In this document: positions 11,868-53,237 of the stretch, piece by piece | Numbering within the stretch: the stretch's first letter is position 1 | How the letters are laid out: the number at the start of each line of letters is the position of its first letter | Assembly: GCA_039583875.1 (NCBI GenBank) | Contig: CM077162.1 | Span: 113,738,589-113,802,588, forward strand | Reading direction: 5' to 3' | Length of the DNA stretch: 64,000 nt | From: Platanthera guangdongensis | Lineage: Eukaryota; Streptophyta; Magnoliopsida; Asparagales; Orchidaceae | The notes under the pieces: generated by a model | Told to the model about the DNA's origin: nothing | Databases searched by the model: none | What the model saw: the letters and a program-made list of their open reading frames with translations, nothing else | Position numbers and translations under genes: made by a program

Positions 11868-11869
11868 AA

Positions 11870-12034: not shown

Positions 12035-12061
12035 GACCATACATTTGTGTTTTACGTGTAG
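12035..12061 (+). other. Candidate 3' splice site just upstream of gag (element A)
   Basis: A branch-like CTGAC at about 12034 is followed by a T-rich stretch and ACGTGTAG ending at 12061. C has the same layout ending at 38585. Joining here to the GTGAGT donor of the LTR exon gives an in-frame N-terminal extension of Gag. This is inferred from sequence alone. Confidence 0.6.
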
Positions 12062-16642: not shown

Positions 16643-16878
16643 TTTTATTTAAAAGCATATTATATTCATGTTATGCTTTTCTCTCCATAGCCTAAGCCTG
16701 ATTTAGGGAACGAAATATTTTTTTTGTTTATTGGATTTGTAACATCCTGAATCGCACTAGGCCCCTTGTGTGTGTTTTTGATCCAGGAGAGCTGACTTGG
16801 GCTCAGGGGAGTGCTGACAACTGGGAAGCATGTAGCAGCCAAAAACTCTGGGATTGGCAAATTTTTGGGGGACACAGT

Positions 16879-17440: not shown

Positions 17441-17453
17441 CCCGTGACACTTT

Positions 17454-17463
17454 TATATAAAAA
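17454..17463 (+). promoter_or_regulatory. Probable TATA box of the A LTR
   Basis: TATATAAAAA lies about 140 bp upstream of the LTR ATG, at the border between the palindrome array and conserved leader. The equivalent spot in C holds a TA run. Confidence 0.7.
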
Positions 17464-17593
17464 GGGAAATGATAACCCTAGCCGTTTTCAATCCTCATTC
17501 CAGCCGTTTTTCTGAGAGGAGCTCCTGTTGAGAGAAGGAAGACGCTGGATCTAGTTCTAGAGGACAAGATCTGCCATCGCCGTGGAAAAGAAG

Positions 17594-17653
17594 ATGTCGC
17601 CGAGAAGAGTCATGAGATTCATGGCCGAAAATGGTGGAAACGCCGGAAGTGAG
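17594..17653 (+). CDS. LTR-encoded short exon with splice donor (A, 3' LTR copy)
   Basis: Twenty codons start MSPRR and end AGSE, followed immediately by the strong donor GAG|GTGAGT. C has the same exon with 19 codons (35720-35776 and 50564-50620), with substitutions and a single-codon indel, so the reading frame is kept. An in-frame TAG lies upstream of this ATG. In the 5' LTR this exon would be the first coding exon of Gag, joined in phase 0 to the acceptor before gag. The 5' LTR copy of this exon in A is beyond the window edge. No domain is recognisable in so short a peptide; it is rich in Arg and Gly. Confidence 0.6.
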
Positions 17654-20114
17654 GTGAGTTTCCTACCCTCTCCCTTGGTGCTAGATCTTTAGTTATTTTC
17701 ATAGGAGAGATATCGACTCAAGAGAGTTTTGATGGAGAGAAGGAGTTTTCAACGGACGGCCATGCTAGGACATGTGTTCTAGGTTTTAGATCTCTTCAAC
17801 CTCCCCTTTCTTCTATGTGATGATTGGTGGATGGTTTTGTGAAGAATCAAGGCCCCTTTGTGGGTGAATAAGGGAGGAGGAATTTCTAGAGTGATTTTGG
17901 AAGATCGACTTGAAGAGGAAGATGAACCGATGTCGTTCATTCCTCTTTACGAAGCGTGCAGAATCTGTATTCTGCGCGTAGCGATCTTCTTGGCCATTTT
18001 CAAGTAGGATATGGCCAGATCTAGGCTTTCAGCTAAACAAGAAAGTTGAAGCCCTTGAAAATACCTTTCCAACGGGTGGTTTCACGTCTTCATGTGAAGT
18101 CTGTAGCCACGGAAAAGTCTGAACGAACATGACGTCCGATAAATCCTGCATGCGGAAATTGTGTTCAGTACGCAGCGGACGTCAAGGCTGATTTCAAATA
18201 GGTTACACTCAAATCTGGGTTGTGGGCTGAATATGAAAGTTGTAACCCCTGGAAAGACCTTTCCATCGAGGTGTTACACGTCTTCACCAGATCCATTTAG
18301 CTTCGGGAATCTCCGGTCGAAGTTGCTGTCCAGATTTCTTTTTCACTTAAATTCTGGGGTTTATATAATATGAATTTGAATTCGGTGGAATCGATGTTAC
18401 TAATTAACTATGTATTTTGATGAACTATTTTATGCTGACCACCGTAGTGCTATGAATGATAAATCTTATTAATCGGATTTCATATAACTGAATTGTGAAG
18501 CAAGCTAACTTAAATGAAATGACTAGGTACAAATTGGTTGATTATCCTTTATGCGCATCATGCTTGAGAAATGTTGAAATCATTTGGAATGACAAATAGA
18601 GGGATAATCCATGGCCATGAGTATGTATGATGGTTAGAATAAAATATAGTAGTCCAATACTTAGAGCGTAGTCTCCCTACAGGTAGTATTGTGAATGGAT
18701 GTAAGTACGGTGTTGACCGTCACTAGTTGGTTTGTGTTGAGATGTGGTATAGATGGATGGTTGGGCTATGCCTTTGTGCTTACTTCTGAGGTCCCCTCCA
18801 TGCCACGATGTTGTAGAATTTGCATATGGTTAGAGTCGACATGCGGTGTTGTAATCCTGGGTTAAGGATAGTCTGGCAGGTCTATGGGCTCGCCGATCGT
18901 CACACCGACGGGAGTTGACGGTTAGACTTTGGGAGGTTGGGCTGTGTCCTCGGTGTTCACGTCCCGAGGCCCCTTCCGTGCCAAGTGAATGGTTGGGCTG
19001 TGTCCTCGTGTCTTCTTTCAAGGCCCCTTCCGGGTAACACCAGGCCAGTTCGGGTTGTGTTCTCGGTGCATATCTACCCGAGACCCCGCTGGGCCATAGT
19101 ACGCATGGGCTCCGCTGTTGTGTTCTTAGCGTTGAGGCATACAGAGGCCTAGGTGAAGTAGTGTGGATACCCACCTAGTAGTAGAGATGCCTGCTCTACT
19201 GTCACCGCCTGGCCACGGCGGCTGATGCCTGAGAGGTTAGCTACCTGGTCGAATAGTGGGAACTATAGTCTGTGTCAACATAGCAATTGCATGTGTGTGA
19301 TCATGGGTGAGTCATTGCATAGCATACATACCATTACATAGTATTACACAAACAAGACCCTCATAGTATAAGTTTGTATGGGCACTCTTATACGATGAGT
19401 TACTTTTATGTAACCCGATCCTTAACTTATAAGTTTGTATGGGCATTCTTATAAGTTAAGTTACTTTCCTGTTGTAGTTACTTGTACTTGTTGATTTACT
19501 AATATTGTTATTCAAGTAGAACTGCTAGTTTATAATGTTGTTAATCATGTACTATTTCCACCTGCTTGTACCTGCTTTACTACTTGTATTATACTTGTAC
19601 CCTTGTTCCTTTCTCCGCCCGGTGCCGAGGAGTCGTCGGGGGAGCGGATGTGAAGCCACTTAGTCTTTCGACTAACGGTTGCTACGTCTTCCTTTTTAGG
19701 AGGTCACCCTGCAGGGAGAGCAGCTGCAGACTTTGCAGCAGGACAGCTAGGCCAGGACGACAGGGCCTGATGTGATGATGTCGTCTCTACCGTCAGTTAC
19801 GGATGTGAGTGTTGTGAGATTCTGTGTAGCCCGTTTGGGCAAATTTTATAGCTGTACTCTGATATTGTAGAAGCGTGTTTTAGCTTCTCTTATTTGATGT
19901 ATTTGGACTCATATGCTTAATGTGGATTTGACTACTTCTTGCTTATATTATGGTTGGGTTGGCATGTATATATATTGATATTGGTTGTAGCCGGGGGAAT
20001 AGGCGTCATGTGGTACAGGTTAGCTGTGCGCTAATGCTACCGCAAGGCAGCTGTTTCGGGCATAAGACCCCCCCTTCGTGCCGTGTTTTGGGATCCGGGA
20101 GGGGGGGTCTTACA

Positions 20115-34763: not shown

Positions 34764-34884
34764 TGTAATGTCCCAATTCGTGCTAGGCTCCCATGCGAGT
34801 TTTGAGTCAGGAGGGCAGGCTTGAGTTCAGGAAAGTGGAGGAAAAAGGGCGGCACTTGTGAATTGGAGAAGTTAGTCCAGAGCA

Positions 34885-35420
34885 GGTTACACGCCCTAGG
34901 TCACGGGCGTGACCCAGGGGCGTGATTGTAAGTACTCGAGTAGCTGCCGAGGTTACTTGAGTAGTTTTCAAAATACTCGGGTAAAATGGGTTACATGCCC
35001 TTGGTCACGGGCGTGACCCAGGGGCGTGACTGAAGGTACTCGAGTAGCTGTCGAGGTTACTCTAGTAGTTTTCAATATACTCTACTAAAATGGGTTACAC
35101 GCCCTAGGTCACGGGCGTGACCCAGGGGCGTGACTGAAGGTACTCGAGTAGCTGCCCAGGTTACTCGAGTAGTTTTCAAAGTACTCGAGTAAAGTGGGTT
35201 ACACGCCCTGGGTCAGGGGCGTGACACAGGGGCATGACATAAGGTACTCGAGTAGGTGACCAAGGTACTCGAGTAGGTGGTTGGTTCTCGAGTGAAAGGG
35301 TTACACACCCTATATCACGGGCGTGACCATGGGCGTGACCTCCGTTCAACGATTTTAAGTGAGTTCAACGAATTCTCGATAGTTGATTTCGACGATTTAG
35401 GTGTCACGCCCCATGTCACG
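34885..35420 (+). repeat. 104-bp tandem array of two palindromes (C 5' LTR)
   Basis: Four units start at 34885, 34989, 35093 and 35197 (GGTTACACGCCC or variant), plus a partial unit at 35299. Each contains GTCACGGGCGTGAC (inverted repeat with short centre) and several TACTCGAGTA (perfect palindrome). The 3' LTR holds the same array from about 43389. Confidence 0.9.
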
Positions 35421-35552
35421 GGCGTGACTTGACTGACACGGGCATGTACGTCCTATCCGCCATTATAGATCGAACCGACAACGTAACCGCCTGTAACGCT
35501 TCGCCCGAGCGGGACACGGGTAAGGACATGGGCGTGTCCCTACCCATGTCAC

Positions 35553-35554
<2 letters not shown>

Positions 35555-35587
<33 letters not shown>
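35555..35587 (+). promoter_or_regulatory. TA-repeat TATA region of the C 5' LTR
   Basis: A run of about 16 TA units sits where the A LTR has a simple TATA box. The 3' LTR copy (50418-50429) has only about six, so the repeat changed length after insertion. Confidence 0.7.
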
Positions 35588-35589
<2 letters not shown>

Positions 35590-35719
35590 AACAGTGGAAA
35601 AACCCTAGCCATTTCACTCTTCCTCCCAGCCGTATTTTTCTGAGAGAAGTCCTGTGGAGAAGGAGAGTTTACTGGAGGAAGATCTAGGAAGGAGATCGGC
35701 CATCGCCGTAGAGGAGAGG

Positions 35720-35776
35720 ATGTCGCCGCGAAGAATCACAAGGTCTATGGCCGGAAATGGAACCGCTGGAAGTGAG
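35720..35776 (+). CDS. LTR-encoded first exon of Gag (element C)
   Basis: Nineteen codons start MSPRRITRSM and end TAGSE, followed by the donor GAG|GTGAGT at 35777. The A copy has 20 codons with the same start and end. Splicing to the acceptor at 38585 (a 2,809-nt intron covering U5 and the PBS) would continue in phase 0 as VPVHVGPMGG, the start of gag. In C the ATG used as gag start in A is GTG, so initiation in the LTR exon would be the only way to reach that position in frame. The exon lies about 130 bp after the TA/TATA region, so it should be in the transcript. The splice is inferred, not observed. Confidence 0.6.
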
Positions 35777-38391
35777 GTGAGTTTCCTACCCTCTCCCTTG
35801 GTGCTAGATCTATAGTTATTTTCCCTAGGCGAGACATCGACACAAGAGAGTCTTGATGGAGAGGAGTTTTCTAGGAAAGACCATGCTAGGACTTGTGTCC
35901 TAGGTTTTAGATCTCTTCAACCACTCCCTTCTTCTATGTGATGATAGGGGATGGCTTCGTGAAGGGTATTGGCCTCTTGAGGTTGAATAATGGAGGAGGT
36001 TTTCTGGAATGACTTGGGAAGATCGCCTTGAGGAGGAAGATGAACCGATGCTGTTTATTCCGCCTTAGGATGCGTGGAGAATCTGTATTCTGCGTGCAGC
36101 GAACTTCGTGGCCATTTTTAGGTGTGATATGGCCAGATCTGGGCTTTCGGCTAAACACAAAAGTTGAATCCCTTGAAAATAACTTTCCAACGAATGGTTG
36201 CACGACTTCAGGCAAAGTCTGTAGCCACAGGAAAGCCTGGACGAAAATGACATCCGATAAATCCTGCATGCAGAATTGTGTTCTGTGCGCAACGGACTTT
36301 GAAGCCAAATTCAAAAAGGATACATTCAATTCTGGGTTGTGGGCTGAATATGAAAGTTGTAACCCATGAAAAGACCTTTCCATCGAGGGGTTACACGTCT
36401 TCGCCGGATTCGCGTAGCCTCAGGAATCTCTGGTTGAAGTTATTGTCCAGATTCAATCTACACTTAAAATTCTAGGTTTTTTTATATAATATGGATTTGG
36501 GTGCGGTGAAATCGATGTTGCAAATTAGCTTGAGGTTTTTGATGAAATATTTCATAATTAACCACCGTAATTCTATGAATGATGAATCTTGTTAATTAGA
36601 TTTCATACAACTAATTGTGAAGAAAGCTTTATTGAATGAATTGACTTGATAGAATTTGGTAAGTTGTTATAGATGCTTATCTTGTTATATCATGTTGGAA
36701 GCAGATTTCTTACAATCGAATTGCGATGCAAGATTACTTGAACGGAATGACTTGATTGAAATTTGTAGATTATTACATGCACATCATATATGTATTATGT
36801 TGGGATCATTTGGGATGTCTTATGGGATGATAAGTTATGGCCAAGTGTATGTTCGATTGATGAATGAAATTTAGTAGTCCAATACTTAGAGCGTCGGCTC
36901 CTTATGGGTAGTATTGAGAAGGGATGTAAGTGCGGTGTTGACCTTCGCAAGCTTGGATAGCTTGAGATGAGACAAACGAGCGGTTGGGCTTCGTCCTCGG
37001 TGTTCACGTCCCGGGGCTCCTTCCGTGCCAGGTGGATGGTTGGGCTTGGTCCTCGTGCCTTCATCTGAGGCTCCTTCCATGCCACGATGATGTGGAATTT
37101 GCATGTGGTTTGAGTCGACACGCGGTGTCGTAATCCTGGGTTAAGGATAGTGTGGCAGGTCTACGGGCTCGGCAGTCGTCACACCGCCTTGAGTCGACAG
37201 TTAGACTTTGGGCGGTTGGGCTTGGTCCTCGGTGTTCACGTCCCGGGGCTCCTTCTGTGCTAGGTGAACGGTTGGGCTTGGTCCTCGTGCTCACTCTGAA
37301 GCTCCTTCCGGGTCACACAAGGTCAGTTCTGAGCTTGGTCCTCGATGCACATCTACCCGAGGCTCCCACTAGGCCATAGTACGCGTGGGCTCCTATGTTG
37401 TGTTATTAGCGTTGAGGCGTACGGAGGCCTAGGTGAAGTAGTGTGGATACCCGCCTAGTAGTAGAGACGCCCGCTCTACTGTCATCGCCTGGCCACGGCG
37501 GCTGATGCCTGAGAGGTTAGCTACCTGCTCGAAAAGTGGGAACTAATGGTCTATGTCGACATAGCGGTTGCATGGGTGTGCATGGGTGAGTCATTGCATA
37601 GCATACATACCATTTCATATCATTGCACAACAAGATCCTCATCGTATAAGTTTGTATGGGCACTCTTATACGATGAGTTACTTTATGCACATCGAACCTT
37701 AACTTATAAGCTTGTATAGGCATCCTTTTAAGTTAAGTTACTTACCAGCTGTAGTTTTCTCTCACTTGTTAGTTTATCCATTGATAGCTCTTGTAGAACT
37801 GCTAGTTTATACATTGATACTCATGTACCTTGCCACCTGCTTGTACCTTTTATACTTATTATATATTGTACTATTGTTCCTTTTTCCCCGCCCGGTGTCG
37901 AGGAGTCGTCGGGAGAGCGGATGTGAAACCACTTAGTTGTTTCGACTAACGGTTGCTACTTCTTCCTTTTTAGGAGGCCACCCCGCAGGTAGAGCAGCAG
38001 CAGACATTGCAGCAGGACAGCCAGGCCAGGACGACAGGCCTGATGGGACGGTACCGTCGCTACCGTCGGTTACTGATGTTAGTATTTTAATACTCTGATG
38101 TAGCCCATTTGGGCAATGTTTTAGCTGTACTCTGATATTTTGTCGAAACATGTTTTAGCTTCTCCTTTATTGATGTATTTGGACTATATGCTTAGTGTGG
38201 ATTTGACTTCTCTTGCTTATTAGATTTGGTTGGGTTGGCATGTATTATTGGTATTGGTTGTAGCCGGCAGAATAGGCGTCTTGTGGTACAGGTTAGCCCA
38301 TGTGCTAATGCTACCGCAAGGCGGCTATTCCGGGCATAAGACTCCCCCTTCGTGCCGTGTTTTGGGATCCCGGGAGGGGGGGGGTCTTACA

Positions 38392-38585
38392 AATGGTATC
38401 AATTTACCACGATCCTCAACTAAGAAGTCATTCAACAATGGTGCCACCCCCGTTCGATTAGTCAGCTTGGGGACAAACTGACTTAGCGGAAGCAGTGGTG
38501 TTCCCATATGTAATTCACATTAAGTTTGTCCAACTTTGACCTTAAGTTTAGCCAACCTGACCACAAATTTGTCATGTACGTGTAG
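38392..38585 (+). other. PBS and intron end upstream of gag (element C)
   Basis: TGGTATCA (38394) starts 2 nt after the LTR, with only eight bases matching initiator tRNA-Met. The segment ends ACGTGTAG at 38585, the proposed 3' splice site, with CTGAC about 25 nt upstream, as in A. Confidence 0.65.
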
Positions 38586-39698
38586 GTTCCAGTGCATGTT
38601 GGGCCGATGGGGGGTACTCCTACCCCTCTCATACCCACTCAGTTCCAATAGTCTGAGTTGGGGCAGACGCTCACCGCCATTCTTGATGCTTTTAAGGCGC
38701 AACAGCCTCCGGTGCAATAATAGGCCCCGGGCTCTAACTGGCTGAGCACCTTCCGGGCTCTCTCCCCTCCCATCTACCTTGGGACGGAGTCAGCCGTATG
38801 TACGGAGGAATGGCTCGACACAGTAGAAGAGCTATTGGCTGGTATCCATTGTCCAGCCAACATGGCCGTGTCATTGGCGGTGTCCGCCTTGGAGTTACAT
38901 GCTAAGAGGTGGTGGAAATCCCTTATGGGCTCTACCTTCCATGGCCGAGTCTATACAGAGATAGTTGGAGTGAATTTTCGGGTGTTTTCTTGGAGCACTT
39001 CATTCCTACTTCGGCCCGAGATGAGCTTGAGTAGAGGTTTCTACTACTGAAGCAGGGATCAAAATCAGTTACGGAATACCGGCGGGAATTCCAACATCTC
39101 GCAAGGTTTGCGAACTCTTATAAGTTGGACGATAGAGGTTATGCCAAACGCTTCTACAAAGGGGTGCGAGATCCCCTAAGGCAGTCTCTTTTGTTTATAG
39201 CGGATGGGAGTTTGGCGGAGATTATTGACATGGCAAAGAGGTTGGAGGCGGATCACTTGAGTAGTGGCAAGAGGCCTGCAGAAGGCGTTATGGAGGCCGG
39301 TCCGAGCAATAGGAGGAGACCGGATCGTAGAGGAGGAGGGGGATATCAGAGGGGTGGAGGGCGTTTCCACCAAAACTATAGATTGGAGCACCCGGTCCAG
39401 CAGCCGACCGCGCTGCCTCCACCACCACAGCCTCAGCAATTCCGGCAACCTGAGGGGCGTCGTGGGTTGGTGTGTTTCGAGTGTAATCAACAGTGCCACA
39501 TTAGACGCTACTGCCCACAACTATATGGGAACGTCCCTCCTGCTCTCCCTCCTGCTCCCCCTCCAGCAGCCCCACGAGGACGGGGATATATTCGTGGTCG
39601 AGGACGAGGACCGCCAAGAGGAAACCCCAGCCCGGTCCGGGATCAGGTGTATGCGCTGGACATGGCGCAAGAGCGGAATCCTCAGAATGTTATAGCTA
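38586..39698 (+). pseudogene. gag: gag of element C (broken)
   Basis: This is homologous to the A gag. The capsid-like region has EEWLDTV and RWWKSL. A one-base deletion near 38960 shifts the frame, and stops occur near 38649 and 38718. The second half (39125-39698) is open and carries an Arg/Gly-rich stretch and a CCHC knuckle (CFECNQQCHIRRYC, about 39475-39516, with the usual Gly before His changed to Cys). A GRGRG-rich tail follows. The frame is open back to 38586 although there is no ATG at the position used in A. The gene is followed by a candidate intron. Confidence 0.82.
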
Positions 39699-39794
39699 GT
39701 ATGTGCAGTTAACCTTCTCAATTTTCGTCATTTAATTTAAACTGTTTAAGACATACTAGATACCTAGTGGTTGAGTTTAGTTATTAGTACTTAG
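39699..39794 (+). other. Candidate 96-nt intron between gag and pol (element C)
   Basis: The boundaries are GCTA|GTATGT and GTACTTAG|GC. GTATGT fits the plant donor consensus. Reading through meets TAA within a few codons. Splicing joins gag and protease in frame (AGC codon, then TVVIGGKTAY). It matches the A intron in position and phase, while most of its internal sequence has drifted. Confidence 0.7.
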
Positions 39795-42700
39795 GCACCG
39801 TGGTAATCGGTGGGAAGACGGCCTATGCGCTGTTCGATATCGGTGCCTCACACTCATTCATGTCCGAAGATTTCATTAAAGGTATGGAGGGCATACAATA
39901 ATTTTCTGGAATAGCCCGACGAGTGCGCCTCCCGGATGGCTCGGAGATGATCGCTACCGCCAAGTGCGAATTTGAGATATTTATTGAAGGAAGGGCTTTC
40001 GATACGTAGGCCACAGTTCTGAAGATGCTGGAGTTCGACATCATTTTGGGCATGGCGTAGTTGAATTGGCACTTCGCGAGGATCGACTGCGCGGAGAAGA
40101 AGATCTATTTGAGACATGGGGACACCGACAATATCTTCCAAGGTATTAATTTTGCACCTTGTATGCTCTTATCTTCAGTTCAGGCTGTAAAGACCCATAT
40201 GAAAGGGGATGAGGTCTTCATGATCTGGTTTGAGTTGAAGGAGGTAGCATTGGAGGTAAAAGATGTTCGGGTAGTGCGGGACTTCCTCGAGGTGTTTTAA
40301 GAGAAACTACCAGGGTTACCCCCTCATAGAGAAGTCGATTTCCGGATTAATCTAGTACCGGGTGCCAAGCCTGTATCCAAGGCCCCTTACCGAATGGCCC
40401 CAAAGGAACTCGCGGAATTTAGAGTTCAATTGCAAGAATTGGTGGAGTCAGGGTTCGTTTGCCCCAGTTCGTCACCCTGGGGAGCCCCTGTATTGTTTGT
40501 GAAGAAGAAGTATGGAACCCTGCGCTTGTGTATAGACTATCAGGAACTCAACCAGCTGACGGTGCGGAACACGTATCCGCTACCTCGGATCGACGAGTTG
40601 TTCGATCAACTAGTGGGAGCACATTGGTTTTATAAGCTGGACTTGCGCTCAGGATACTATCAATTGAGGATACAGGAGGAGGACATCCAGAAGACAGCCT
40701 TCAGTTCAAGATATGGGTTGTATGAGTTCACGGTAATGTCGTTTGGGCTTACAAATGCCCCTTCGGCTTTCATGAGCCTGATGAACAAGGTATTCGAACC
40801 CTATTTGGACGTCTTCGTCATCGTCTTCATCGACAATATACTGTTCTACTCAAATACGGAGGAGGAGCATACCGAGCACCTGGCTTTGGTTCTGAAGAAA
40901 TTAAAAGAGCACGCTTTGTTCGCCAAGTTCAACAAATGCGAATTTTGGCTCAAAGAGGTTGCCTTCTTAGGCCATGTAATCAGTGGAGCTGGACTGGCGG
41001 TGGATCCGGCCAAGGTGCGTGCCCTGAAGTAATGGTCGCCCTTGAAATCGGCATCCGATGTACGGAGTTTCTTGGACTTGCCGGGTAATACCGCAAGTTC
41101 GTAAAAGGGTTCTCCAAGATTTCCCTTCCTCTTACCTCCTTGACGAAGAAGGGTGCGCCATTTGAGTGGACACCTCAATGTGAAGCGGCATTTCAGGAGT
41201 TGAAGGATAGACTTACCTCCGCCCCCATCCTTGCACTTCCATTTGGGAAGGAAGGATTTCAAGTTTACAAGGACGCGACATATCAAGGGATGGGAGCGGT
41301 ATTGATGCAGCACGGGCATGTGATTGTTTATGCTTCAAGGCAACTGAAGAAGCATGAAATCAATTACCTGGTTCACGATTTGGAGTTGGGAGCGGTGGTG
41401 TTCGCCTTGAAGGTTTGGAGGCACTATCTATACGGCTTTCACTGCGAGATCTTTTCGGATCATAAAAACTTGAAGTATGTTCATACACAGGAGTTGAACA
41501 TGAGGCAACGGCGGTGGTTAGAATTTCTACACGACTATGAGTTTACCATGAACTACCACCCCGGAAAGGCGAACTCGGTGGCTGATGCGTTGAGTATAAA
41601 AGTGTCAGGCTCTAGCCCAGAATCTCGGTTGATGAGCATGGAGTTGGCTCGGATGATCGAAGTGATGGATATTACCTTGATATTCAAGGCTCCATCGGCA
41701 GAGTATACAAAATTTTTGGCAAGCATGAGCATAATTTGTGATATTCGGGACCAGATTCGGGTGGAGCAAGGAATGGATGCGGCTTTGGCCCCGATAATTA
41801 AATTAATAGAAGAACGAACTACCGATGAGTATACACTCAAAGACGGCCTCATTTACTTTCGCGACCGGCTCTACATTCCCAAGGGCGGTAAAATCCGGGA
41901 GGATATCTTGAGAGAGGCACATAGCTCTCAATATTCAGTGCACCCGGGTATTGCTAAGATGTACGCCGGTTTGCGGAAGACCATGTGTTGGCCGGGAATG
42001 AAGAAGGATGTCTGGTATTATGTTACTCATTATGAAGCCTGTCAAAGAGTGAAGGCTGAATGCAGGAGTCCCGGTGGTTTGTTGCAGTCATTGCCCATTC
42101 CCGAATGGAAGTTCGACGATATCTCCATGGACTTTGTCCATAGGCTACCTCGCTCATGCTCCGGGAATGATTCGGTGTGGGTTATTGTTCATCGGCTGAC
42201 AAAAGTAGCCCGATTCATTCCCATGAAGAAAGAGGCTCACGTGGACGTCTTGGTGCGCCTCTTCGTGGAGCAGTTTGTACGATATCACGACGTGCCTAAG
42301 ACGATCATTTCTAACCGTGATGGTCGCTTTACTTCCAAGGAGTGGAAGGCGGTACAGGCGTATTTGGGCTCACGCCTTACCTTCAGCACCGCATTTCATC
42401 CTCAGATGGACGGGCAGTCTGAAAGGACCATCAGGACATTGGAGGATCTGCTGAGATTATGTGTGTTGGATAGGGGTGAGCCATGGGAAAGACTCATACC
42501 ACTGGTGGAATTCTCCTACAACAACAGTCATCAGGCGAGCATCGGTATGGCACCTCATGAAGCGCTTTATGGTAGAAGGTGTAGAACCCCCTTGTCTTGG
42601 GTGCAAGATGAAGACCCGAAGACCTTGGGTATTGAGTATATTAATGATACCGATGCAGTGGTTAGGCTGATACGAGATCGTATGTTGGAGGCCAAAGTCG

Positions 42701-43181
42701 ACAAGCGAAGTATTATAATGCAAAGCACCGAATGGTGGAGTTTCAAGTGGGAGATAAGGTGTTTCTGAAGATCCGGCCGATGCATGGAGTGTCACGGGTT
42801 CGTGGTGTGAAAAGGCTCAGCCCAAGATATGTTGGACCTTATACTATTTTGGAAAGGATTGGCTCGTTGGCCTATCGGTTGGAGTTACCACCAGAACTAC
42901 AGAATCTCCACGACGTGTTCCATGTGTCGTCGCTTCGAAAGGCGTTGTTGTGGCCCGATCAATATATTCCCACTACTGATGGTGCAGTGGCGTCGGACAG
43001 GTATGTGCGACTAGAGCCGGTGCGGATTGTTGACAACGAGACAAGAACATTACGTCGCAAAAGCGTTCCCTTGGTGAAGGTACAATGGTCCAATCATGGG
43101 AAGGAGGAGTTTACCTGGGAGCCGGTGGACTTGATGCAAAAACGCTACCCGGGATTATTTCCTCCAGGTAATTTTGTTTAA
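39795..43181 (+). pseudogene. pol: pol of element C: protease, RT, RNase H, integrase, chromodomain-like tail
   Basis: The domain order is as in A. Protease has FDIGASHSF (catalytic DTG changed to DIG). RT active site is FIDNIL instead of FIDDIL, so the second catalytic Asp is lost. RNase H starts VYKDAT instead of VYTDAS, losing the first Asp. Stops are at 39899, 40007, 40058, 40298 and 41030, with one-base shifts near 41067 and near 42695. RNase H to integrase is open for 542 codons (41140-42768), and the tail VKVQWSNHGKEEFTWEP ends at 43181. Integrase looks best kept (SMDFVHRLPRS, NRDGRF with the usual SDRD Asp changed to Asn). The copy is not autonomous. Confidence 0.88.
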
Positions 43182-43267: not shown

Positions 43268-43834
43268 TGTAACGTCCTGATTCGCGCTAGGCCCCCATGC
43301 GAGTTCTGAGTCAGGAGGGCAGGCTTGAGTTCAGGAAAGTGGAGGAAAAAGGGCGGCACTTGTGAACTGGAGAAGTTAGTCCAGAGCAGGTTACACGGCC
43401 TGGGTCACGGGCGTGACCCAGGGGCGTGACTGCAGGTACTCGAGTAGCTGTCGAGGTTACTCGAGTAGTTTTCAAAATACTCGAGTAAAATGGGTTACAT
43501 GCCCTAGGTCACGGGCGTGACCCAGGGGCGTGACTGAAGGTACTCGAGTAGCTGTCGAGGTTACTCGAGTAGTTTTCAATATACTTTAGTAAAATGGGTT
43601 ACACGCCCTAGGTCACGGGCGTGACCCAGGGGCGTGACTGAAGGTACTCGAGTAGCTGCCGAGGTTACTCGAGTAGTTTTCAAAGTACTCGAGTAAAGTG
43701 GGTTACACACCCTGGGTCATGGGCGTGACACAGGGGCGTGACTTAAGGTACTCGAGTAGGTGCCCAAGGTACTCGAGTAGGTGGTTGGTTCTCGAGTGAG
43801 AGGGTTACACACCCTATGTCACGGGCATGATCAT
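43268..43834 (+). repeat. 3' LTR of element C, left piece
   Basis: It starts TGTAACGTCC and contains the 104-bp palindrome array (from about 43389). It is cut at ATCAT (43830-43834) by J and matches the 5' LTR 34764-35318. Confidence 0.9.
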
Positions 43835-45403
43835 TGATGAGTTCACTTTATATACCTATTTTCAGACTCATCTGGGCTAGTTTTCACGCGTTTGCATTTC
43901 ACTTTTAGTTCTTTATCGTTTCTATTTCTTCTGATCGTTATTTCCATAGGAAGTGCACATTTATGCCCGTAGTTGTGTATTTTGTTATTTTTATAGTTTG
44001 TACTCCCTTTTGTGATTGTCCGGAATGTCTGCACAGATTAGTGATTGGTTTTTCCTTTCGGTACAGGGGTCGTGTGCGTCTTCCGGGATGGTTGTGAAAT
44101 AGGAATACTGTGCACGATCATGGGATCTAATGCGCACGACAACTGGTCATGCGCCCCTGATCGTGCGCTTTACTCTATGTTTTCCAGAATCAGCCTGGGG
44201 TAAGCGCACGACCACTGGACATACTGCGCACGACCACCGGTCGTACGCCACTGATCGTGTGCATTGATTCCTCTTTTCTAGAGTCCTGTCTAGATAATCG
44301 CACGATCATTGGACTTAGTGCACACGACCACTGGTCGTGCGCTACTTCTCGTGCGCATTATCCCAGTTCTTCTTCCTGATATTCCATGCTAGTGCGCACG
44401 AGCACAGGACATAGTGCGCACGACCACTGGTCGTGCGCCTGTGATCGTGCGACTTGTTCATTTCTGCTTTTGTATAAATAGTGCAGGTTCCGCCCTAATC
44501 CGGAGATCGCTCATTTCCTCCGCCGTTTTCATCTCCGAGGAGGGATTCCGCCGTCCTCCTTCATCTTCCACCCTAGGGAGGTGCTCCGGGCAAGCTTTCA
44601 CCGCCAAATCCGAGCCGGAGCTTCCTCTCGGCCTTCTCCTTCATCCATGAGCTTCAAGTAGGGTTTGACGCCATAGCCATCAAGCAAAGGAAAGCTAGCA
44701 AACTTCGTTCGCTATCGTGAGACGAAGAAGACGGGCTATTGGAAGGTGGTGACAGCCCTTCTCTATCCCGGAAGCAGTTGAGGACCGAGCTTGGACGCGG
44801 AATGACAACCCGACGATTCCAACCGTGAATCCTCAGCAAGACTTCGGATTCGGTCGATCTCTTGACTTGTTCTTGCTTTCTTGTTGAATATTGGTGTTTA
44901 ACTTTATTTATATTGATGAAGTATGCTTAGTTTGTAAACGTTGTGTACAATTATGTCTATGTGATTGTATGTTTTCGTTATATTTACTTGAGTTGCGTCA
45001 TATTCCATCCACCATCCATCCACCCTTGTCGCACTAGCAACTGCTAGTGGCGTGCGTAGCAAAGAGGTGCTTACGACCCTCATTCCGCCGTTCTAACCAC
45101 CTCATCCGCTAGCCTTCTCGTCCATCTGCCTAGTGATTCGGTGCATAGCGGCCCGACTAGTCTTCCATCCTGCCTGGCGAAGCATCGCATAGCGGCATTG
45201 CATAGGAGTAGTTGATAGTGTTTTATTTTCTTTGTCTGCAACATCAAAACCCCCCTTAGTTAGCTCCGACCTGAGGACTTCAATCTCAAGTCCTCCTCGA
45301 AATTAACTCCACCTTATTGTGTTCCTTGTGAGATCGATACTTGGGAAAACCCCCATTTTATATTACTTGTGCGACCGGTTCACTGCCGTGATCTATAGCA
45401 TCA
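43835..45403 (+). repeat. 5' LTR of element J (1,569 bp)
   Basis: It starts TGATGAGTTCAC and ends TAGCATCA. The upstream part has the GCGCACGACCA palindrome array (44105-44455), then TATAAATA at 44473-44480. A short ATG frame (MSFK*, 44647) is present in both LTRs with minor change. Confidence 0.93.
44105..44455 (+). repeat. Long palindrome array in the J LTR
   Basis: The array repeats variants of GCGCACGACCA followed by its inverted form TGGTCGTGCGC. The best copy (about 44416-44438) is a 23-bp palindrome with a single central mismatch. About four to five units end shortly before the TATA box. The 3' LTR repeats this at 48890-49240. Confidence 0.85.
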
Positions 45404-45409
45404 AGTTTT

Positions 45410-45427
45410 TGGCGCCGTTGCCGGGGA
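45410..45427 (+). promoter_or_regulatory. Primer-binding site of element J (tRNA-Asp type)
   Basis: TGGCGCCGTTGCCGGGGA, an 18-base complement to the 3' end of plant tRNA-Asp, is the PBS usual in Athila/Tat elements. It lies six bases after the LTR end. Confidence 0.88.
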
Positions 45428-45703
45428 ACACAGTCGTGTGAGTTTGAGGAGAGGGAGATAATAGATTGAAGCCCATTTTCCATTTGTGCATATCATTTTT
45501 TTTTATTTGCTTTGGTTTTTAGAATTTTTATTTTGCATATTTCTTTTTGCCCTTTTCTGATTTTTGATTTAGATAGCAGATCCGTGCTACTGTTATTTTA
45601 GCTATGTAGCACTTTTCAGCAATTATTTTTGTTCGTGGTGGATCCTGATGCTGAGTGCCGTGTCCTTGACACTTTGCGTCGATCCATCGATGCCATTGCT
45701 GTT

Positions 45704-46861
45704 ATGAATGCCGAGCATTGCATTCGGTGTTTGTTATGTCAAGGTGTGGGCCACATGTTGAAGGATTGCCCTCATTTGTGCAACCCTTCTCCCTCTGAGG
45801 GCGTGTGCACAACAACCTCCCGTTCGCGGAAGACTGTTGTGGACAGGCCTACCAGGGTGTTGCTTGGCCCATACACTGACATAACGCACTTTGCTCATTC
45901 TTTACCCGTTGAGATTACTGAAGAATCTCTGGCCGCATACAGCTCTTTCATGGGTCCCTCGATCCCTTTTTACGAGCTTTCCTTGAGTGATGATGATCAC
46001 TATGTTGTTAGCCAACAAAAAGAGGAGCAGGAACTCATGAACGCTCCTGTATGGGACGATGAGATTGTTCCGGTCGTCGACGGGGTGGCGTCTGCGAATG
46101 ATTTTGCGATGGGGCCTGCTCATTCAGTGCTTGATTTTGAGAGCAGCCTAGCCCCTCTGCAATTTTTGTCGGATTGTGCTACTCCATTTTTGTGTGAGTC
46201 GGTTGATGATGTCGTGATTGTGGATGATTCGGTGCCCGAGGTTACGCCGAAGTGGGATGATGATTCCTCTATCTCCGACGGAGAAGGTGGATCTTCGGAA
46301 CATTTTTACGCACCCCGGTGGGATGAGGAATACCCTCTTTCCGATGCGGAGGTTTGCACCTCCTTATTGGATGAGGTCGTTCCTCTTACCACCGCGGACC
46401 TTGAGTTCTCGGATTCCCCTCATTACGACTCGTATGATACCGACGATGATCTCTGCTTGGATCCTGCTGAGAGTGACACCGGGATCACTCTCCCATTTTC
46501 TGATTATTTTAGTTCTTCGTCTCCTTTATTTCTTGATCCCCCTTCTCTATCTGAGCCTGTGCAGGCTGAGTCTCCACGGGTATGCTGGGATGATGATGAG
46601 CCTGGTGTTCTTGTCGTTGCCATCACATCCTGCACACCTGTGGTTGACGATGCCTTGCTAGGCGAGGATAATTTTTGTGATACGATGAGGGAGGACCAGG
46701 CCTCCTCCTCATCCTATTTCCTATTCCCTCTGCCTGCGAGGAGCAGGTATGATTATTTAGGCAGAGGGGTAACTGCTCTATCACCGTATCGGTACCCGTT
46801 ACCGAAACGGATATTGGAACAGTTACCTGTGCACTTTTTATTTCATAGGCCCATTAGCTAG
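45704..46861 (+). CDS. Acidic zinc-knuckle protein of element J
   Basis: Starting at the first ATG, 45704, the product has 385 residues; the same frame is open without ATG from 45602. Near the N terminus is a single CCHC knuckle, CLLCQGVGHMLKDC, as in retroviral nucleocapsid. The rest is strongly acidic and Ser-rich, with a recurring Trp-acid motif (VWDDE, KWDDD, RWDEE, CWDDD) four times and no protease or polymerase motif. The frame is uninterrupted, unlike the old pol genes around it. A role in binding the element's RNA is plausible from the knuckle; the acidic part has no function I can name. After the stop, a T-rich stretch ending TTTTTGCAG (about 46995) looks like a 3' splice site and is followed by a short open frame to 47105, so the true C terminus may differ. 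Confidence 0.7.
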   Translation: MNAEHCIRCLLCQGVGHMLKDCPHLCNPSPSEGVCTTTSRSRKTVVDRPTRVLLGPYTDITHFAHSLPVEITEESLAAYSSFMGPSIPFYELSLSDDDHYVVSQQKEEQELMNAPVWDDEIVPVVDGVASANDFAMGPAHSVLDFESSLAPLQFLSDCATPFLCESVDDVVIVDDSVPEVTPKWDDDSSISDGEGGSSEHFYAPRWDEEYPLSDAEVCTSLLDEVVPLTTADLEFSDSPHYDSYDTDDDLCLDPAESDTGITLPFSDYFSSSSPLFLDPPSLSEPVQAESPRVCWDDDEPGVLVVAITSCTPVVDDALLGEDNFCDTMREDQASSSSYFLFPLPARSRYDYLGRGVTALSPYRYPLPKRILEQLPVHFLFHRPIS

Positions 46862-48619
46862 AACTGTTTAGAATTTAATAAGTCGTGCTGGGATGACAAT
46901 AACCCCAGTACTTATCTTTTATTTCCTGCATTTTTATTTTCATGTCTATTTTATTTTAGCATTTGTTTTTGTATATTTTTCTTTTGTTTTTGCAGAGCTC
47001 ACCCCTGCAGGTATTCATAGCAAATCGCATTGGCGGGGTTGTGATTCTTCGTATGGCGGGCCTGCTTCAGGTTTCCACGCGTCTTCTGGTATGCTCACTA
47101 ACTGAGCATGGGGTAAACTCTTCCGTTAGCTCTTTATGATTTTAATTTCTCTATATTATGCTTTTTTGCTTAGTATAAGTCTGGGGGAGAGATCTGTTAC
47201 CTATTGCACGTACACATCTCATGTGCATACTAGAAGCTTTTATTATTATATTTTGATTAGTTCATTGCATCACACACCACTACACCCACATGAGCGCGTG
47301 CTTAGCTGTTAGTGTGCCACGAGTTAAACTCATTTCTTCGTTAGATTTGGGAAAATTATGATGCTGACATAGGATTGTGAGACAGAGTAAAATGTTGGTC
47401 TTGTTGTGTTTCTAGTCAACTGCTCTTGTCTCGTGTAGAAATTCGAGTAGATTTAATTTTTCTGTATGCTTATAGTTTTATATCTTTCTATTTGCGTAAA
47501 TACTTTTTATTCTACTCAAAAGTTGGTGAATCCGGTGTGAATCCGACGGTAGCTTAGGGATGTGTGTAGACGGTCGTTAGGTTTGTATTGCTAGAGTCGG
47601 GAGGATGGATAGTCTTTCTCGTTGGCTAAGAACTTGCCCCAAGCTATTCTTGAAGCATGGGTATAGGTTAGTCATGCATGAGCGTGATGTAGGCCATCAT
47701 TTTGGTCCGGCTGAGCTTTGTACCATTCCTAACGTCTTATCCTCGCTAGCCCCGTTGTGCCTACCCATTCTTTTGATCCAGCTCCACCTTTATTTCACCA
47801 AAGCCTCAAAGCCAATCTTAGTCGCACACCCAAGTTGAGCTTTAGTGTTTACATTTTAATGTTGGGGTGTGATGTGGTGTTACTACATGTGAAAATGTGG
47901 ATGTGCTCCAATGTTATATTCGCTGAAATTGCAAAAATAAAAAGATGATTTGAATAAAGAAAAAAAAGAGAGAAAATATTTTTTTTAAAAAAAAGTGAAA
48001 AGTAAAAGTAAAATTGAAAATCATTTTGGGAAATGTGATTATATTTGGAGTAGGCGGTGCACACACCCATATGTTAAAAGTTAAGTTTGGGGGCGTGGTG
48101 TACCCGCGTGTATTTTGCTTAGTAGAGGGATTCATTTTTTTACTAGCTCATTTGGGTTAGGTGCATAGCCTTCTTGTTTATCCTTGTTTACCTCACCGAA
48201 ACCCAAGCCCCATCTCTTCACCTATAGTCCTACTGATTCATGTGTCACCCAAACCAGTGTCGTGGAGAGAATGTGAAAGGGCAAGCATATGGTCACCGAC
48301 ATTGGTGGATTCCTTTGGAGGTTATCCGGAGCCCCGATCTTTGGCAATGCTCGCCTAGTGATTAGTCTACTTTCTCCCTACGCGTGACCGGATGATTCAC
48401 CGTGATTCCATTTTTGAGTAATAATAAAATTTTGATACGCCTTGTGAAAAGTATAAACTATTTTGTATACTTAGAAATTTCTTCTATTATATTTTTACGC
48501 GCGCGAGCATGCGACTTCGCATGGTACTTCGTATCGCAATTTCTTTGTTAACTAGTATTTTTCCCTATCTGCTTAGATTCTGTTTGCTCGGGACGCGCAA
48601 ACAGTTAAGTCTGGGGGTG
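46862..48619 (+). other. Non-coding region of element J with several polypurine-like tracts
   Basis: There is no convincing long frame. The functional polypurine tract should be AAGTCTGGGGGTG at about 48606-48618, right before the 3' LTR. Similar tracts recur at about 47176-47190 (TAAGTCTGGGGGAGAG), 47858-47873 (TGTTGGGGTGTGATG) and 48081-48100 (TTAAGTTTGGGGGCG). An A-rich stretch lies at about 47930-48010. Confidence 0.6.
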
Positions 48620-50188
48620 TGATGAGTCCACTTTATATACCTATTTTCGGACTCATCTGGGCTAGTTTTCACGCGTTTGCACTTCACTTTTAGTTCTTTA
48701 TCGTTTCTATTTCTTCTGATCGTTATTTCCATAGGAAGTGCACATTTATGCCCGTGGTTGTGTATTTTGTTATTTTTATAGTTTGTACTCCCTTTTGTGA
48801 TTGTCTGGAATGTCTGCACAGATTAGTGATTGGTTTTTCCTTTCGGTACAGGGGTCGTGTGCGTGTTCCGGGATGGTTGTGAAACAGGAATACTGCGCAC
48901 GATCATGGGATCTAATGCGCACGACCACTGGTCATGCGCCCCTGATCGTGCGCACTACTCTACATTTTCCAGAATCAGCCTGGGGTAAGCGCACGACCAC
49001 TGGACATACTACGCACGACCATCGGCCGTGCGCCACTGATCGTGTGCATTGATTCCTCTTTTCTGGAGTCCTGTCTGGGTAATCGCACGATCATTGGACT
49101 TAGTGCACATGACCACTGGTCGTGCGCCACTTCTCGTGCGCATTATCCCAGTTCTTCTTCCTGATATTCCATGCCAGTGCGCACGAGCACAGTACATAGC
49201 GCGCACGACCACTGGTCGTGCGCCTGTGATCGTGCGCCTTGTTCATTTCTGCTTTTGTATAAATAGTGCAGGTTCCGCCCTAATCCGGAGATCGCTCATT
49301 TCCTCTGCTGTTTTCATCTCCGAGGAGGGATTCCGCCGTCCTCCTTCATCTTCCACCCTAGGGAGGTGCTCCGGGCAAGCTTTCACCGCCAAATCCGAGC
49401 CGGAGCTTCCTCTCGGCCTTCTCCTTCATCCATGAGCTTCATGTAGGGTTTGACGCCATAGCCATCAAGCAAAGGAAAGCTAGCAAACTTCGTCCGCTAT
49501 TGTGAGACAAAGAAGACGAGCCATTGGAAGGTGGTGACAGCCCTTCTCTATCCCGAAAGCAGTTGAGGACTGAGCTTGGACGCGGAATGACAACCCGACG
49601 ATTCCAACCGTGAATCCTCAGCAAGACTTCGGATTCGGTCGATCTCTTGACTTGTTCTTGCTTTCTTGTTGAATATTGGTGTTTAACTTTATTTATATTG
49701 ATGAAGTATGCTTAGTTTGTAAACGTTGTGTACAATTATGTCTATTTGATTGTATGTTTTCATTATATTTACTTGAGTTGCGCCATATTCCATCCACCAT
49801 CCATCCACCCTTGCCGCACTAGCAACTGCTAGTGGCGTGCGTAGCGAAGAGGTGCTTACGACCCTCATTCCGCCGTTCTAACCACCTCATCCGCTAGCCT
49901 TCTCGTCCATCCGCCTAGTGATTCAGTGCATAGCGGCCCGACTAGTCTTCCATCCCGCCTGGCGAAGCATCGCATAGCGGCGTTGCATAGGAGTAGTTGA
50001 TAGTGTTTTATTTTCTTTGTCCGCAACATCAAAACCCCCCTTAGTTAGCTCTGACCTGAGGACTTCAATCTCAAGTCCTCCTCGAAATTAACTCCACCTT
50101 ACTGTGTTCCTTATGAGATCGATACTTGGGAAAACCCCCATTTTATATTACTTGTGTGACTGGTTCACTGTCGTGATCTATAGCATCA
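48620..50188 (+). repeat. 3' LTR of element J (1,569 bp)
   Basis: It has the same length as the 5' LTR, with TATAAATA at the same offset (49258-49265) and the palindrome array at 48890-49240. It ends TAGCATCA before ATCAT. Confidence 0.93.
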
Positions 50189-53100
50189 ATCATGGGCGTG
50201 ACCTCCGTTCGACGATTTTATGTGAGTTCGACGAATTCTCGATAGTTGAGTTCGACGATTTAGGTGTCAGGCCCCATGTCACGGGCGTGACTTGACTGAC
50301 ACGGGCGTGTACGTCCTATCCGCCATTATAGATCGAGCCGACAACGTAACCACCTGTAACGCTTCGCCCAAGCGGGCCACGGGTAAGGACACGGGCGTGT
50401 ACCTACCTGTGTCACATTATATATATATAAGGAACAGTGGAAAAACCCTAGCCATTTCACTCTTCCTCCCAGCCGTATTTTTCTGAGAGAAGTCCTGTGG
50501 AGAAGGAGAGTTTACTAGAGGAAGATCTAGGGAAGGAGATCCGCCATCGCCGTAGAGGAGAGGATGCCGCCGCGAAGAATCACAAGGTCTCTGGCCGGAA
50601 ATGGAACCGCTGGAAGTGAGGTGAGTTTCCTACCCTCTCCCTTGATGCTAGATCTATAGTTATTTTCCCTAGGCGAGACATCGACTCAAGAGTGTCTTGA
50701 TGGAGAGGAGGAGTTTTCTTGGAAAGGCCATGCTAGGACTTGTGTCCTAGGTTTTAGATCTCTTCAACCACTCCCTTGTTCTATGTGATGATAGGGGATG
50801 GTTTCGTGAAGGGTATTGGCCTCTTGAGGTTGAATAAGGGAGGAGGTTTTCTGGAATGACTTGGGAAGATTGCCTTGAGGAGGAAGATGAACCAATGTCG
50901 TTCATTCCGCCTTAGGATGCGTGCAGAATCTGTATTCTGCGTGCAGCGAATGTCATGGCCATTTTTAGGTGTGATATGGCCAGATCTGGGCTTTCGTCTA
51001 AACACGAAAGATGAAGCCCTTGAAAATACCTTTCCAACGAATGGTTGCACAACTTCAGGTGAAGTCTGTAGCCACGGGAAAGCCTGGACGAAAATGACAT
51101 CCGATAAATCCTGCATGCAGAATTGTGTTTTGTGCGCAGCGGACTTTGAAGCCAAATTCAAATAGGATACATTCAAATCTGGGTTGTGGGCTGAATATGA
51201 AAGTTGTAACCCATGCAAAGACCTTTCCATCGAGGGGTTACACTTCTTTGCCGGATTCACGTAGCCTCAGGAATCTCCGGTTGAAGTTGCTGTCCAGATT
51301 CAATATACACTTAAAATTCTGGGTTTTTTTATATAATATGGATTTGGGTGCGGTGAAATCGATGTTGCAAATTAGCTTGAGGTTTTTGATGAAATATTTC
51401 ATAATTAACCACCGTAATGCTATGAATGATGAATCTTGTTAATTAGATTTCATATAACTAATTATGAAGCAAGCTTTATTGAATGAATTGACTTGATAGA
51501 ATTTGGTAAGTTGTTATAGATGCATATCTTGTTATATCATGTTGGAAGCAGATTTCTTACAATCGAATTGCGATGCAAGATTACTTGAACGAAACGACTT
51601 GATAGAAATTTGTAGATTATTACATGCACATCATATATGTATTATGTTGGGATCATTTGGGATGTCTTATGGGATGATAGGTTATGGCCAGGTATATGTT
51701 CGATTGATGAATGAAATTTAGTAGTACAATACTTAGAGCGTCGGCTCCCTATGGGTAGTATTGGGAAGGGATGTAAGTGCAGTGTTGACCGTCGCAAGCT
51801 TGGATAGCTTGAGATAAGACAAACAGACGGTTGGGCTTGGTCCTCGGTGTTCACGTCCCGGGGCTCCTTCCGTGCCAGGTGGATGGTTGGGCTTGATCCT
51901 CATGCCTTCATACGAGCCTCCTTCCATGCCACGATGATGTGGAATTTGCATGTGGTGTGAGTCGACACGCGGTGTCGTAATCCTGGGTTAAGGATAGTGT
52001 AGCAGGTCTACGGGCTCGCCAGTCGTCACACCGACGGGAGTCAACAGTTAGACTTTGGGCGGTTTGTCTTGGTCCTCGGTGTTCACGTCTCGGGGCTCCT
52101 TCCGTGCCAGGTGAACGGTTGGGCTTGGTCCTCGTGCTCACTCTGAGGCTCCTTCCGGGTCACACAAGGTCAGTTCGGGGCTTGGTCCTCGGTGCACATC
52201 TACCCGAGGCTACCGCTGGGCCATAGTACGCATGGGCTCCGCTGTTGTGTTCTTAGCGTTGAGGCGTACGGAGGCCTAGGTGAAGTAAGGTGGATACCCG
52301 CCTAGTAGTAGAGACGCCCGCTCTAGTGTAACCGTCTGGCCACGACGGCTGATGCCTGAGAGGTTAGCTACCTGCTCGAAAAGTGGGAACTAATGGTCTA
52401 TGCCGACATAGTGGTTGCATGGGTGTGCATGGGTGAGTCATTGCATAGCATACATACCATTTCATATTATTGCACAACAAGATCCTCATCGTATAAATTT
52501 GTATGGGCACTCTTATACGATGAGTTACTTTATGCACATCGACCCTTAACTTATAAGCTTGTATGGGCATCCTTATAAGTTAAGTTACCTGTTGTAGTTT
52601 TCTCTCAATTATTAGTTTATACATTGATAGCTCTTGTAGAACTGCTAGTTTATACATTGATACTCATGTACCTTGTCACCTGCTTGTACCTTTTATACTT
52701 ATTATATATTATACTATTGTTCATTTTTCCCCGCCCGGTGCCGAGGAGTCGCCGGGGAAGCGGATGTGAAACCACTTAGTCATTTCGACTAACGGTTGCT
52801 ATGTCTTCCTTTTTAGGAGGCCACCCCGCAGGTAGAGCAGCAGCAGGCATTGCAGCAGGACGGCTAGTCCAAGACGACAGGGCCTGAGGGGATGGTACCG
52901 TCGCTACCGTCGGTTACTGATGTTAGTATTTTGATACTCTGATGTAGCCCGTTTGGGCAATGTTTTTGCTGTACTCTGATATTTTGTAGGAGCATGTTTT
53001 AGCTTCTCATTTATTGATGTATTTGGACTATATACTTAGTATGGATTTGACTTCTCTTGCTTATTATATTTGGTTGTGTTGGCATGCATTATTAGTATTG

Positions 53101-53237
53101 GCTGTAGCCAATAGAATATGCGTCTTGTGGTACAGGTTAGCCCATGCGCTAATGCTACCGCAAGGCGGCTGTTCCGGGCATAAGACTCCCCCTTCGTGCC
53201 GTGTTTTGGGATCCCGGGAGGGGGGGGGGGTCTTACA
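50189..53237 (+). repeat. 3' LTR of element C, right piece
   Basis: This resumes the C LTR after J and matches 35319-38391. It contains the shorter TA run (50418-50429), the LTR exon copy with donor GTGAGT (ATG 50564, donor 50621) and the U5 end GGGGTCTTACA before CCCAT. Confidence 0.9.

Follow-up and report, generated by a model that had tools for sequence, protein, structure and literature searches.

We report that two decayed Ty3/gypsy retrotransposons of the orchid Platanthera guangdongensis carry, inside their long terminal repeats (LTRs), two short in-phase blocks bounded by splice signals, which we call exon 1 and exon 2, and that gag opens in the same phase directly behind a further acceptor. 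The elements, A and C, lie in a stretch of 64,000 nucleotides (the window, C16:113738589-113802588 of the 4.25-Gb assembly) and represent two of the subfamilies A, C, D and E, names coined in the present analysis. We consider it likely that Gag is made from a spliced RNA in which LTR exons 1 and 2 are followed by gag and which lacks the primer-binding site (PBS), while the unspliced RNA would be the genome. An earlier, sequence-only reading of the window had noticed the LTR frame and its phase-0 junction to gag, and this observation is confirmed. From its proposal that Gag is translated from a spliced mRNA lacking the PBS we keep the start in an LTR exon, the in-phase passage across U5 and the PBS, and the separation of message from genome; in place of its direct junction (35776^38586) the evidence favors three exons, exon 2 having escaped it.

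LTR limits were set by self-comparison and by reading the ends. The features of element C on which the argument turns are the following.

34764-38391, plus strand: 5' LTR, with TG...CA ends and a flank, CCCAT, found also at the far end of the 3' LTR
35720-35776, plus strand: exon 1, 5' LTR copy, 57 nucleotides (nt), 19 codons, MSPRRITRSMAGNGTAGSE, donor GAG/GTGAGT
35777-37973, plus strand: putative intron 1, 2197 nt, entirely within the LTR
37638-37677, plus strand: hairpin of intron 1, 13 bp and perfect in this copy, in a part of the LTR where subfamily copies are 98-100% alike
37974-38077, plus strand: exon 2, 5' LTR copy, 104 nt through a 1-nt deletion, acceptor TTTTTAG/GAG, donor GAT/GTTAGT
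38078-38585, plus strand: putative intron 2, comprising the LTR end, the PBS and the leader
38394-38401, plus strand: start of the PBS, TGGTATCA, which we take to be of the initiator tRNA-Met type
38461-38482, plus strand: hairpin 3' of the PBS, within intron 2
38586-39698, plus strand: exon 3, that is gag, decayed by stops and open immediately 3' of the acceptor
39699-39794, plus strand: candidate intron 3 between gag and protease, 96 nt, containing the stop of the unspliced reading (coordinates derived from the frame ending at 39712)

Of the 40 best exon 1 DNA matches in the genome, two are the C copies of the window, and the other 38 were each taken with a surrounding stretch. To these were added the window copies, six stretches (one of subfamily A, five of D) from 150 scored gag matches, and six subfamily E stretches from a second set of 150 gag matches. 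The resulting alignments, which are biased to well-kept copies, hold 51 copies for exon 1, 48 for exon 2 and 27 for the gag start. The lineage is abundant, with 111,068 first-look gag candidates (among them the 150 scored), 6020 genome matches to an exon 1 pattern running from ATGYCGCC to the donor, and 6521 to an exon 2 pattern. Lengths were taken from 100 listed matches to each pattern, all from the first part of C1; both patterns require intact ends.

Exon 1 is under codon-level selection between subfamilies. Its frame is open in all 51 aligned copies and starts with ATG in 50. The frames reported earlier, of 57 nt in C (at 35720) and of 60 nt in A (at 17594), end alike in GAG/GTGAGT, exactly as described; the latter is a 3' LTR copy, because the broken 5' LTR of A stops short of that region, and a third window copy, in the 3' LTR of C (50564-50620), can now be added. 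Copies had been said to differ by substitutions and whole-codon indels only, and this extends to the 51 copies, where the two distinct indels measure 3 and 9 nt and neither breaks the frame. Among the listed matches, exon 1 is 60 nt (85 matches), 57 (4), 51 (2), 42 (6) or 59 nt (3) long; its length is thus divisible by 3 in 97 of 100, in four in-frame classes. The ratio of nonsynonymous to synonymous differences (pN/pS) between subfamilies is 0.28 in frame versus 1.14 and 1.29 in frames 1 and 2. In 28 diverse copies, including one with a stop and one without the ATG, the corresponding values are 0.33 versus 0.82 and 1.26. Near-fixed subfamily differences fall at codon positions 1, 2 and 3 in 5, 3 and 12 sites, respectively (P 0.013). 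The ATG had been placed about 130 to 140 bp after the TATA box, and we measured 140 nt in A and 139-147 nt in C copies that have a TATA; it provides the first AUG beyond TATA+32 in 36 of the 46 TATA-bearing copies among the 51 examined. Exon 1 is short and the samples favor well-kept copies, as would suit functionless short open frames and splice-like sites left by chance or shared ancestry; set against this are the four in-frame length classes and the wrong-frame controls, on which a chance frame was rejected, and we hold the explanation to be extremely improbable.

Read without splicing, the exon 1 frame runs 12 codons beyond donor 1 to a stop in 47 of 51 copies, 41 of the 51 sharing the identical tail VSFLPSPLVLDL before the stop. 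Subfamily differences in this tail are synonymous, and the start of intron 1 is more conserved than exon 1 itself, its first 42 nt (35777-35818 in the 5' LTR of C, and equivalents) being nearly invariant across subfamilies. Because of this extension, exon 1 may double as a leader peptide, and the 42 nt may encode a leader peptide, an RNA signal or both. The same facts would suit a scheme with no splicing at all, where exon 1 belongs to a leader open reading frame (ORF) of 29 to 32 codons ending 12 codons beyond the 'donor', and gag is reached by a ribosome shunt and a non-AUG start, as with the first ORF of rice tungro bacilliform virus (RTBV); both devices are documented for plant pararetroviruses (PMC5902531). 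Such a scheme leaves unexplained exon 2, the contrast of T-poor exons with T-rich introns, the phases of three separate blocks, the gene models and the probable junction loci described below. We judge it unlikely as a substitute for splicing, with which it may nevertheless coexist.

Exon 2 lies 2.2 kb 3' of exon 1, within the LTR, and reads CTTCCTTTTTAG/GAGG...GAT/GTTAGT or GTGAGT. Both copies of A and the 3' LTR copy of C, three of the four in the window, have it at 105 nt, beginning and ending in phase 0. The same length is found in 95 of the 100 listed matches; lengths of 108, 102, 96, 112 and 104 nt occur once each, so 98 are divisible by 3. As the lengths of exon 1 and exon 2 are both 0 modulo 3, the junction to gag falls in phase 0; the agreement with what had been claimed for A and C is by arithmetic. 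The exon 2 peptide (E-x-TPQ...PSVTD) is found, with both ends matched, in three annotated orchid proteins; the genome paper made its annotation with MAKER, using de novo, homology and RNA-seq evidence (PMC9023349). In P0001 of P. zijinensis it is followed by gag from a later point, and in P0003 of the same species it stands amid unrelated flanks. P0004, a P. guangdongensis model for cytochrome b-c1 subunit 7, has it between host exons. The host exons occupy C9:118264043-118264406, and about 29 kb further along the same strand comes the exon 2 copy (region C9:118264043-118293387), which may be an exonised LTR exon or an annotation artefact. The idea that residues 56-226 of P0001 match in one piece as a spliced copy was dropped, the added stretch being, by simple arithmetic, only about 20% identical.

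The splice signals are largely kept in the aligned copies: donor 1 reads GTGAGY in 51/51, acceptor 2 AG in 46/48, donor 2 GT in 47/48 and acceptor 3 AG in 24/27. At the 5' end of element C, T content is 16% in exon 1, 32% in intron 1, 12.5% in exon 2, 34% in intron 2 and 24% in the gag start. The last acceptor AG stands at 38585 in C and 12061 in A, precisely where it had been placed, and gag opens right behind it, the preceding codon being the acceptor's own in-frame TAG in all ten copies checked; the frame of C is indeed open back to the acceptor. The gag start is open and in frame in 12 of 27 copies, with pN/pS of 0.32, 0.98 and 2.23 in frames 0, 1 and 2, and near-fixed differences at 10, 2 and 24 sites by codon position (P 4e-5). 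Non-coding stretches gave 13/10/10, 1/1/3, 1/1/2, 5/5/3 and 6/6/7 sites by codon position, and pN/pS of 0.74/1.22/0.70 in the leader and 0.76/0.77/1.19 at the end of intron 1. Distinct indels not divisible by 3 number 3/5 in the leader, 4/4 and 4/6 at the start and end of intron 1, 14/17 at the start of intron 2 and 10/14 in the gag start.

An alternative origin for Gag would be a second promoter further downstream, yielding an RNA with a short leader from which gag is translated from its own ATG, the LTR frames being relics. BARE has been described with two promoters (PMC3735527), and all six copies of A, C and D that were examined have an ATG at gag codon 3 or 8. The sequence-only reading had stressed that C has GTG where A has ATG (codon 3); this is so, but the argument is weak alone because the examined copies of A, C and D all have an ATG at codon 8. 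It becomes strong through subfamily E, where that ATG is lacking too: of the four examined, L053 and L054 can be read for 74 gag codons and show no ATG, and in L056 and L058 the frame meets a stop first. The gag ATG as a general start is thereby rejected for subfamily E. Together with the codon-specific selection on exon 1 between subfamilies, this makes the second promoter very unlikely. In the unspliced RNA, 58-73 AUGs intervene between exon 1 and gag (six copies counted).

If intron 1 alone were spliced out, the RNA would still carry the PBS and could be copied, and both resulting LTRs would lack intron 1. A subfamily-neutral pattern for the exon 1-exon 2 junction (at most one mismatch) matched the genome twice, at C7:269831318-269831341 and C7:269859168-269859191. 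A second pattern, which required the beginning of exon 1 to stand 38-68 nt ahead of that of exon 2, matched only the same two places, ended at the same bases and gave exon 1 a length of 51 nt, one of its known classes. Reversed-pattern controls gave no match. By a rough estimate, chance would produce about one to two matches per pattern alone, and both at the same base about once in a thousand. The loci (C7:269831276-269831341 and C7:269859126-269859191) lie on one strand, 27.85 kb apart, which fits two LTRs without intron 1 but also a duplication. Going by the pattern matches, they are probably a footprint of spliced RNA, that is, a retrocopied exon 1-exon 2 junction.

Several points weigh against the three-exon reading. 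The case for splicing is built from sequence, from gene models containing exon 2 and from the two probable junction loci on C7, which are known as pattern matches. Exon 1, or exon 2 joined to this gag acceptor, is present in none of the three gene models. Two non-coding controls are also low in frame 0, namely the start of intron 1 (0.30/0.61/0.96) and the end of intron 2 (0.48/0.88/1.11). Probes of 30-31 nt for the young subfamily D (at most three mismatches) found no match for the junctions of exons 1-2, 2-3 or 1-3, against 4921 for the unspliced control; as loss of the PBS predicts no copies without intron 2, it is for intron 1 that this is a real negative in D. Exon 2 itself is open and in frame in only 22 of 48 copies (A 0/3, C 14/35, D 5/5, E 3/5), six of its eight distinct indels break the reading frame (each in a single copy), and its codon signal is weak, with pN/pS of 0.62/0.99/0.76 and near-fixed differences at 4, 4 and 5 sites by codon position (P 0.45). 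Its stops are TAG in 29 of 31 cases, which fits C-to-T decay in old copies.

The weak codon signal and the many decay stops of exon 2, with the phase-0 junction in A and C, would also suit a two-exon form (35776^38586) in which gag follows exon 1 at once and exon 2 is left out, either always or partly; because exon 2 is 0 modulo 3, skipping leaves the frame intact. Such a form does not account for the length kept in 95 of the listed exon 2 matches and for its kept splice signals, for the recurrence of its peptide, both ends included, in three gene models, or for the two probable loci that connect exon 1 with exon 2; the D probe for the direct junction had no match, as likewise that for exons 1-2. 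We therefore regard two exons as improbable and favor three.

A further, candidate intron lies between gag and protease. In ten copies of subfamilies A and C, those of the window included, ...VIAG at the gag end is followed by GTATGT, GTATGA or GTACGT. In nine of the ten a matching ACTTA(G/C) stands 95-97 nt downstream (at 96 in seven), and behind it the protease frame continues in the correct phase. The acceptor is ACTTAC in one copy, and L025 has none. The unspliced frame stops within this candidate intron 3 in all ten copies, at most five codons from the donor in nine, and the commonest gag frames among the 150 scored matches, of 378 and 374 codons, fit such a stop. The gag end motif was not found in four further copies checked. 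Protease and reverse transcriptase (RT) share one open frame in A (13205-14752), with no Ogre-type intron between them. Two matches of the second set of 150 (C5:163932705-163933148 and C18:78645866-78646309) lie in open frames of 1501 codons, possibly copies without candidate intron 3. The description 'gag and pol in one frame', which came from these two frames, was withdrawn because of the candidate 95-97-nt intron and its stop at the gag end.

In the mechanism that we propose, transcription would start about 30 nt 3' of the TATA box of the 5' LTR, and the first AUG in most copies would be that of exon 1, whose 14-20 codons would give the Gag N terminus (M-P/S-P-R-R...). Splicing would take out intron 1, which lies within the LTR (about 2.1 kb), and intron 2, which reaches from the LTR interior across the LTR end, the PBS and the leader (about 0.5 kb); exon 2 (35 codons) and gag would continue in frame after exon 1, and the spliced RNA would be translated into Gag; candidate intron 3 (about 96 nt) would give Gag when kept and Gag-Pol when removed. 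Without a PBS the spliced RNA could not be primed, while the unspliced RNA, which bears the PBS, would because of its 58-73 AUGs before gag be genome and not message. We lean, by somewhat more than an even chance, toward a broader view in which the retroviral rule is reversed: the genomic RNA would be unable to make Gag, Gag and Gag-Pol would come only from spliced RNA lacking the PBS, message and genome would be mutually exclusive, and conserved intron segments would mark the unspliced RNA for packaging. Our guess is that the conserved intron parts, namely the first 42 nt of intron 1, the 13-bp hairpin and the hairpin after the PBS, are signals of the genome RNA. The right arm of the 13-bp hairpin recurs at 19387 (3' LTR of A) and 52512 (3' LTR of C), with one mismatch each. 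RNA structure is not claimed as proof of a packaging signal, since of 37 predicted pairs two have changes on both sides and the covariation term is 0.03.

The remaining features of the two elements in the window are listed below.

43268-43834, plus strand: element C, 3' LTR, first part
50191-53237, plus strand: element C, 3' LTR, second part
50564-50620, plus strand: element C, exon 1, 3' LTR copy, MPPRRITRSLAGNGTAGSE
52817-52921, plus strand: element C, exon 2, 3' LTR copy, 105 nt, one stop
4965-6174 and 10791-11867: element A, broken 5' LTR
11455-11559, plus strand: element A, exon 2, 5' LTR copy, 105 nt, one TAG
11560-12061, plus strand: element A, putative intron 2, with the LTR end at 11867 and the PBS from 11870
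12062-12766, plus strand: element A, exon 3, that is the gag frame, with a Retrotrans_gag domain
13163-13259, plus strand: element A, candidate intron 3 between gag and protease, 97 nt
16738-20114, plus strand: element A, 3' LTR
17594-17653, plus strand: element A, exon 1, 3' LTR copy, 60 nt, 20 codons, MSPRRVMRFMAENGGNAGSE
19700-19804, plus strand: element A, exon 2, 3' LTR copy, 105 nt, one stop

Both elements are decayed, as seen in the 104-nt exon 2 of the 5' LTR of C, the stops in the gag of C and the TAG in exon 2 of the 5' LTR of A. Pfam searches of the window frames returned Ty3/gypsy domains: Retrotrans_gag, RVP_2 then RVT_1 sharing one frame, RT_RNaseH and Integrase_H2C2. The rve match in element C is below the cut-off. 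So is that to the chromodomain (PF00385) which a plant chromovirus would have at its integrase end: in the C frame 42666-43181 it covers residues 117-162 with E 0.0018 and 18.6 bits, the cut-off being 25.1 bits. Another LTR element (43835-50189) is nested in the 3' LTR of C; its own LTRs are 1570 bp long and 96.7% identical, and its 419-codon frame (45602-46861) has no Pfam match. The insertion inside the 5' LTR of A (6175-10790) has direct repeats at 6175-6600 and 7893-8316 (93%) and a frame, 6975-7670, with the look by eye of an integrase end. On the minus strand, frames at 57924-60296 resemble, again by eye, Ty1/copia RNase H and integrase.

For LTR elements it has long been asked how a single transcript can serve at once as genome and as message. 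If our reading is true, the anatomy of these elements may answer it, a single splicing act supplying the Gag start codon and removing the primer site. As the lineage is abundant, published orchid RNA-seq could test the reading at once. On the practical side, a gag search that begins only 3' of the PBS can overlook the real N terminus, and host gene models can take up an LTR exon, as that of the cytochrome b-c1 subunit has taken up exon 2.

Some retroviruses have splice donors borne on the LTR. Mouse mammary tumor virus and human immunodeficiency virus type 1 (PMC8096270, PMC4974535) resemble the arrangement proposed for the orchid elements in having a leader splice donor and an unspliced genome RNA; they differ in that Gag and Gag-Pol are translated from their unspliced RNA too, which the orchid unspliced RNA could not allow. 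In plants, according to a review, introns are generally absent from LTR retrotransposons except Ogre and EVADE (PMC12786077); BARE1, Bagy2 and CRR are further spliced cases (PMC3735527), and CRM elements are described as one frame (PMC3059260). A phrase search of the literature, covering titles, the openings of abstracts and excerpts, which can miss such a case and leaves subscription papers outside, found no description of a coding exon in a plant Ty3/gypsy LTR, and the parts examined of studies on orchid gypsy elements (PMC9289625) and on Retand (PMC11963269) contain nothing alike.

Ogre is likewise a plant Ty3/gypsy element, in which an intron is removed from a subset of RNAs for the whole polyprotein, as candidate intron 3 would be. 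The Ogre intron, however, lies between GAG-PROT and RT, whereas protease and RT of orchid element A share one frame, and the LTR exons have no described counterpart in Ogre (PMC6317226). In BARE1 (PMC3735527) and EVADE (PMC8892269, PMC12786077), splicing also splits the roles of the RNAs and Gag is favored on the spliced one; these are Ty1/copia elements with introns at or after the gag end, whose splicing leads to Gag only, whereas the putative orchid introns precede gag and would supply its start. Nor do the orchid elements belong with them, having Ty3/gypsy domains and a candidate intron 3 whose removal would lead into protease and whose retention gives a stop. The nearest mechanism is that of RTBV, which splices a leader upstream ORF onto a long ORF: in its P4 RNA a short leader ORF gives the start codon and is spliced to a distant long ORF, and the leader also bears a Met-tRNA primer site. 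The difference is that the fused frame of RTBV is ORF IV of a pararetrovirus without LTRs, while in the orchid element it would be gag, with two start exons inside the LTR (PMC5902531).

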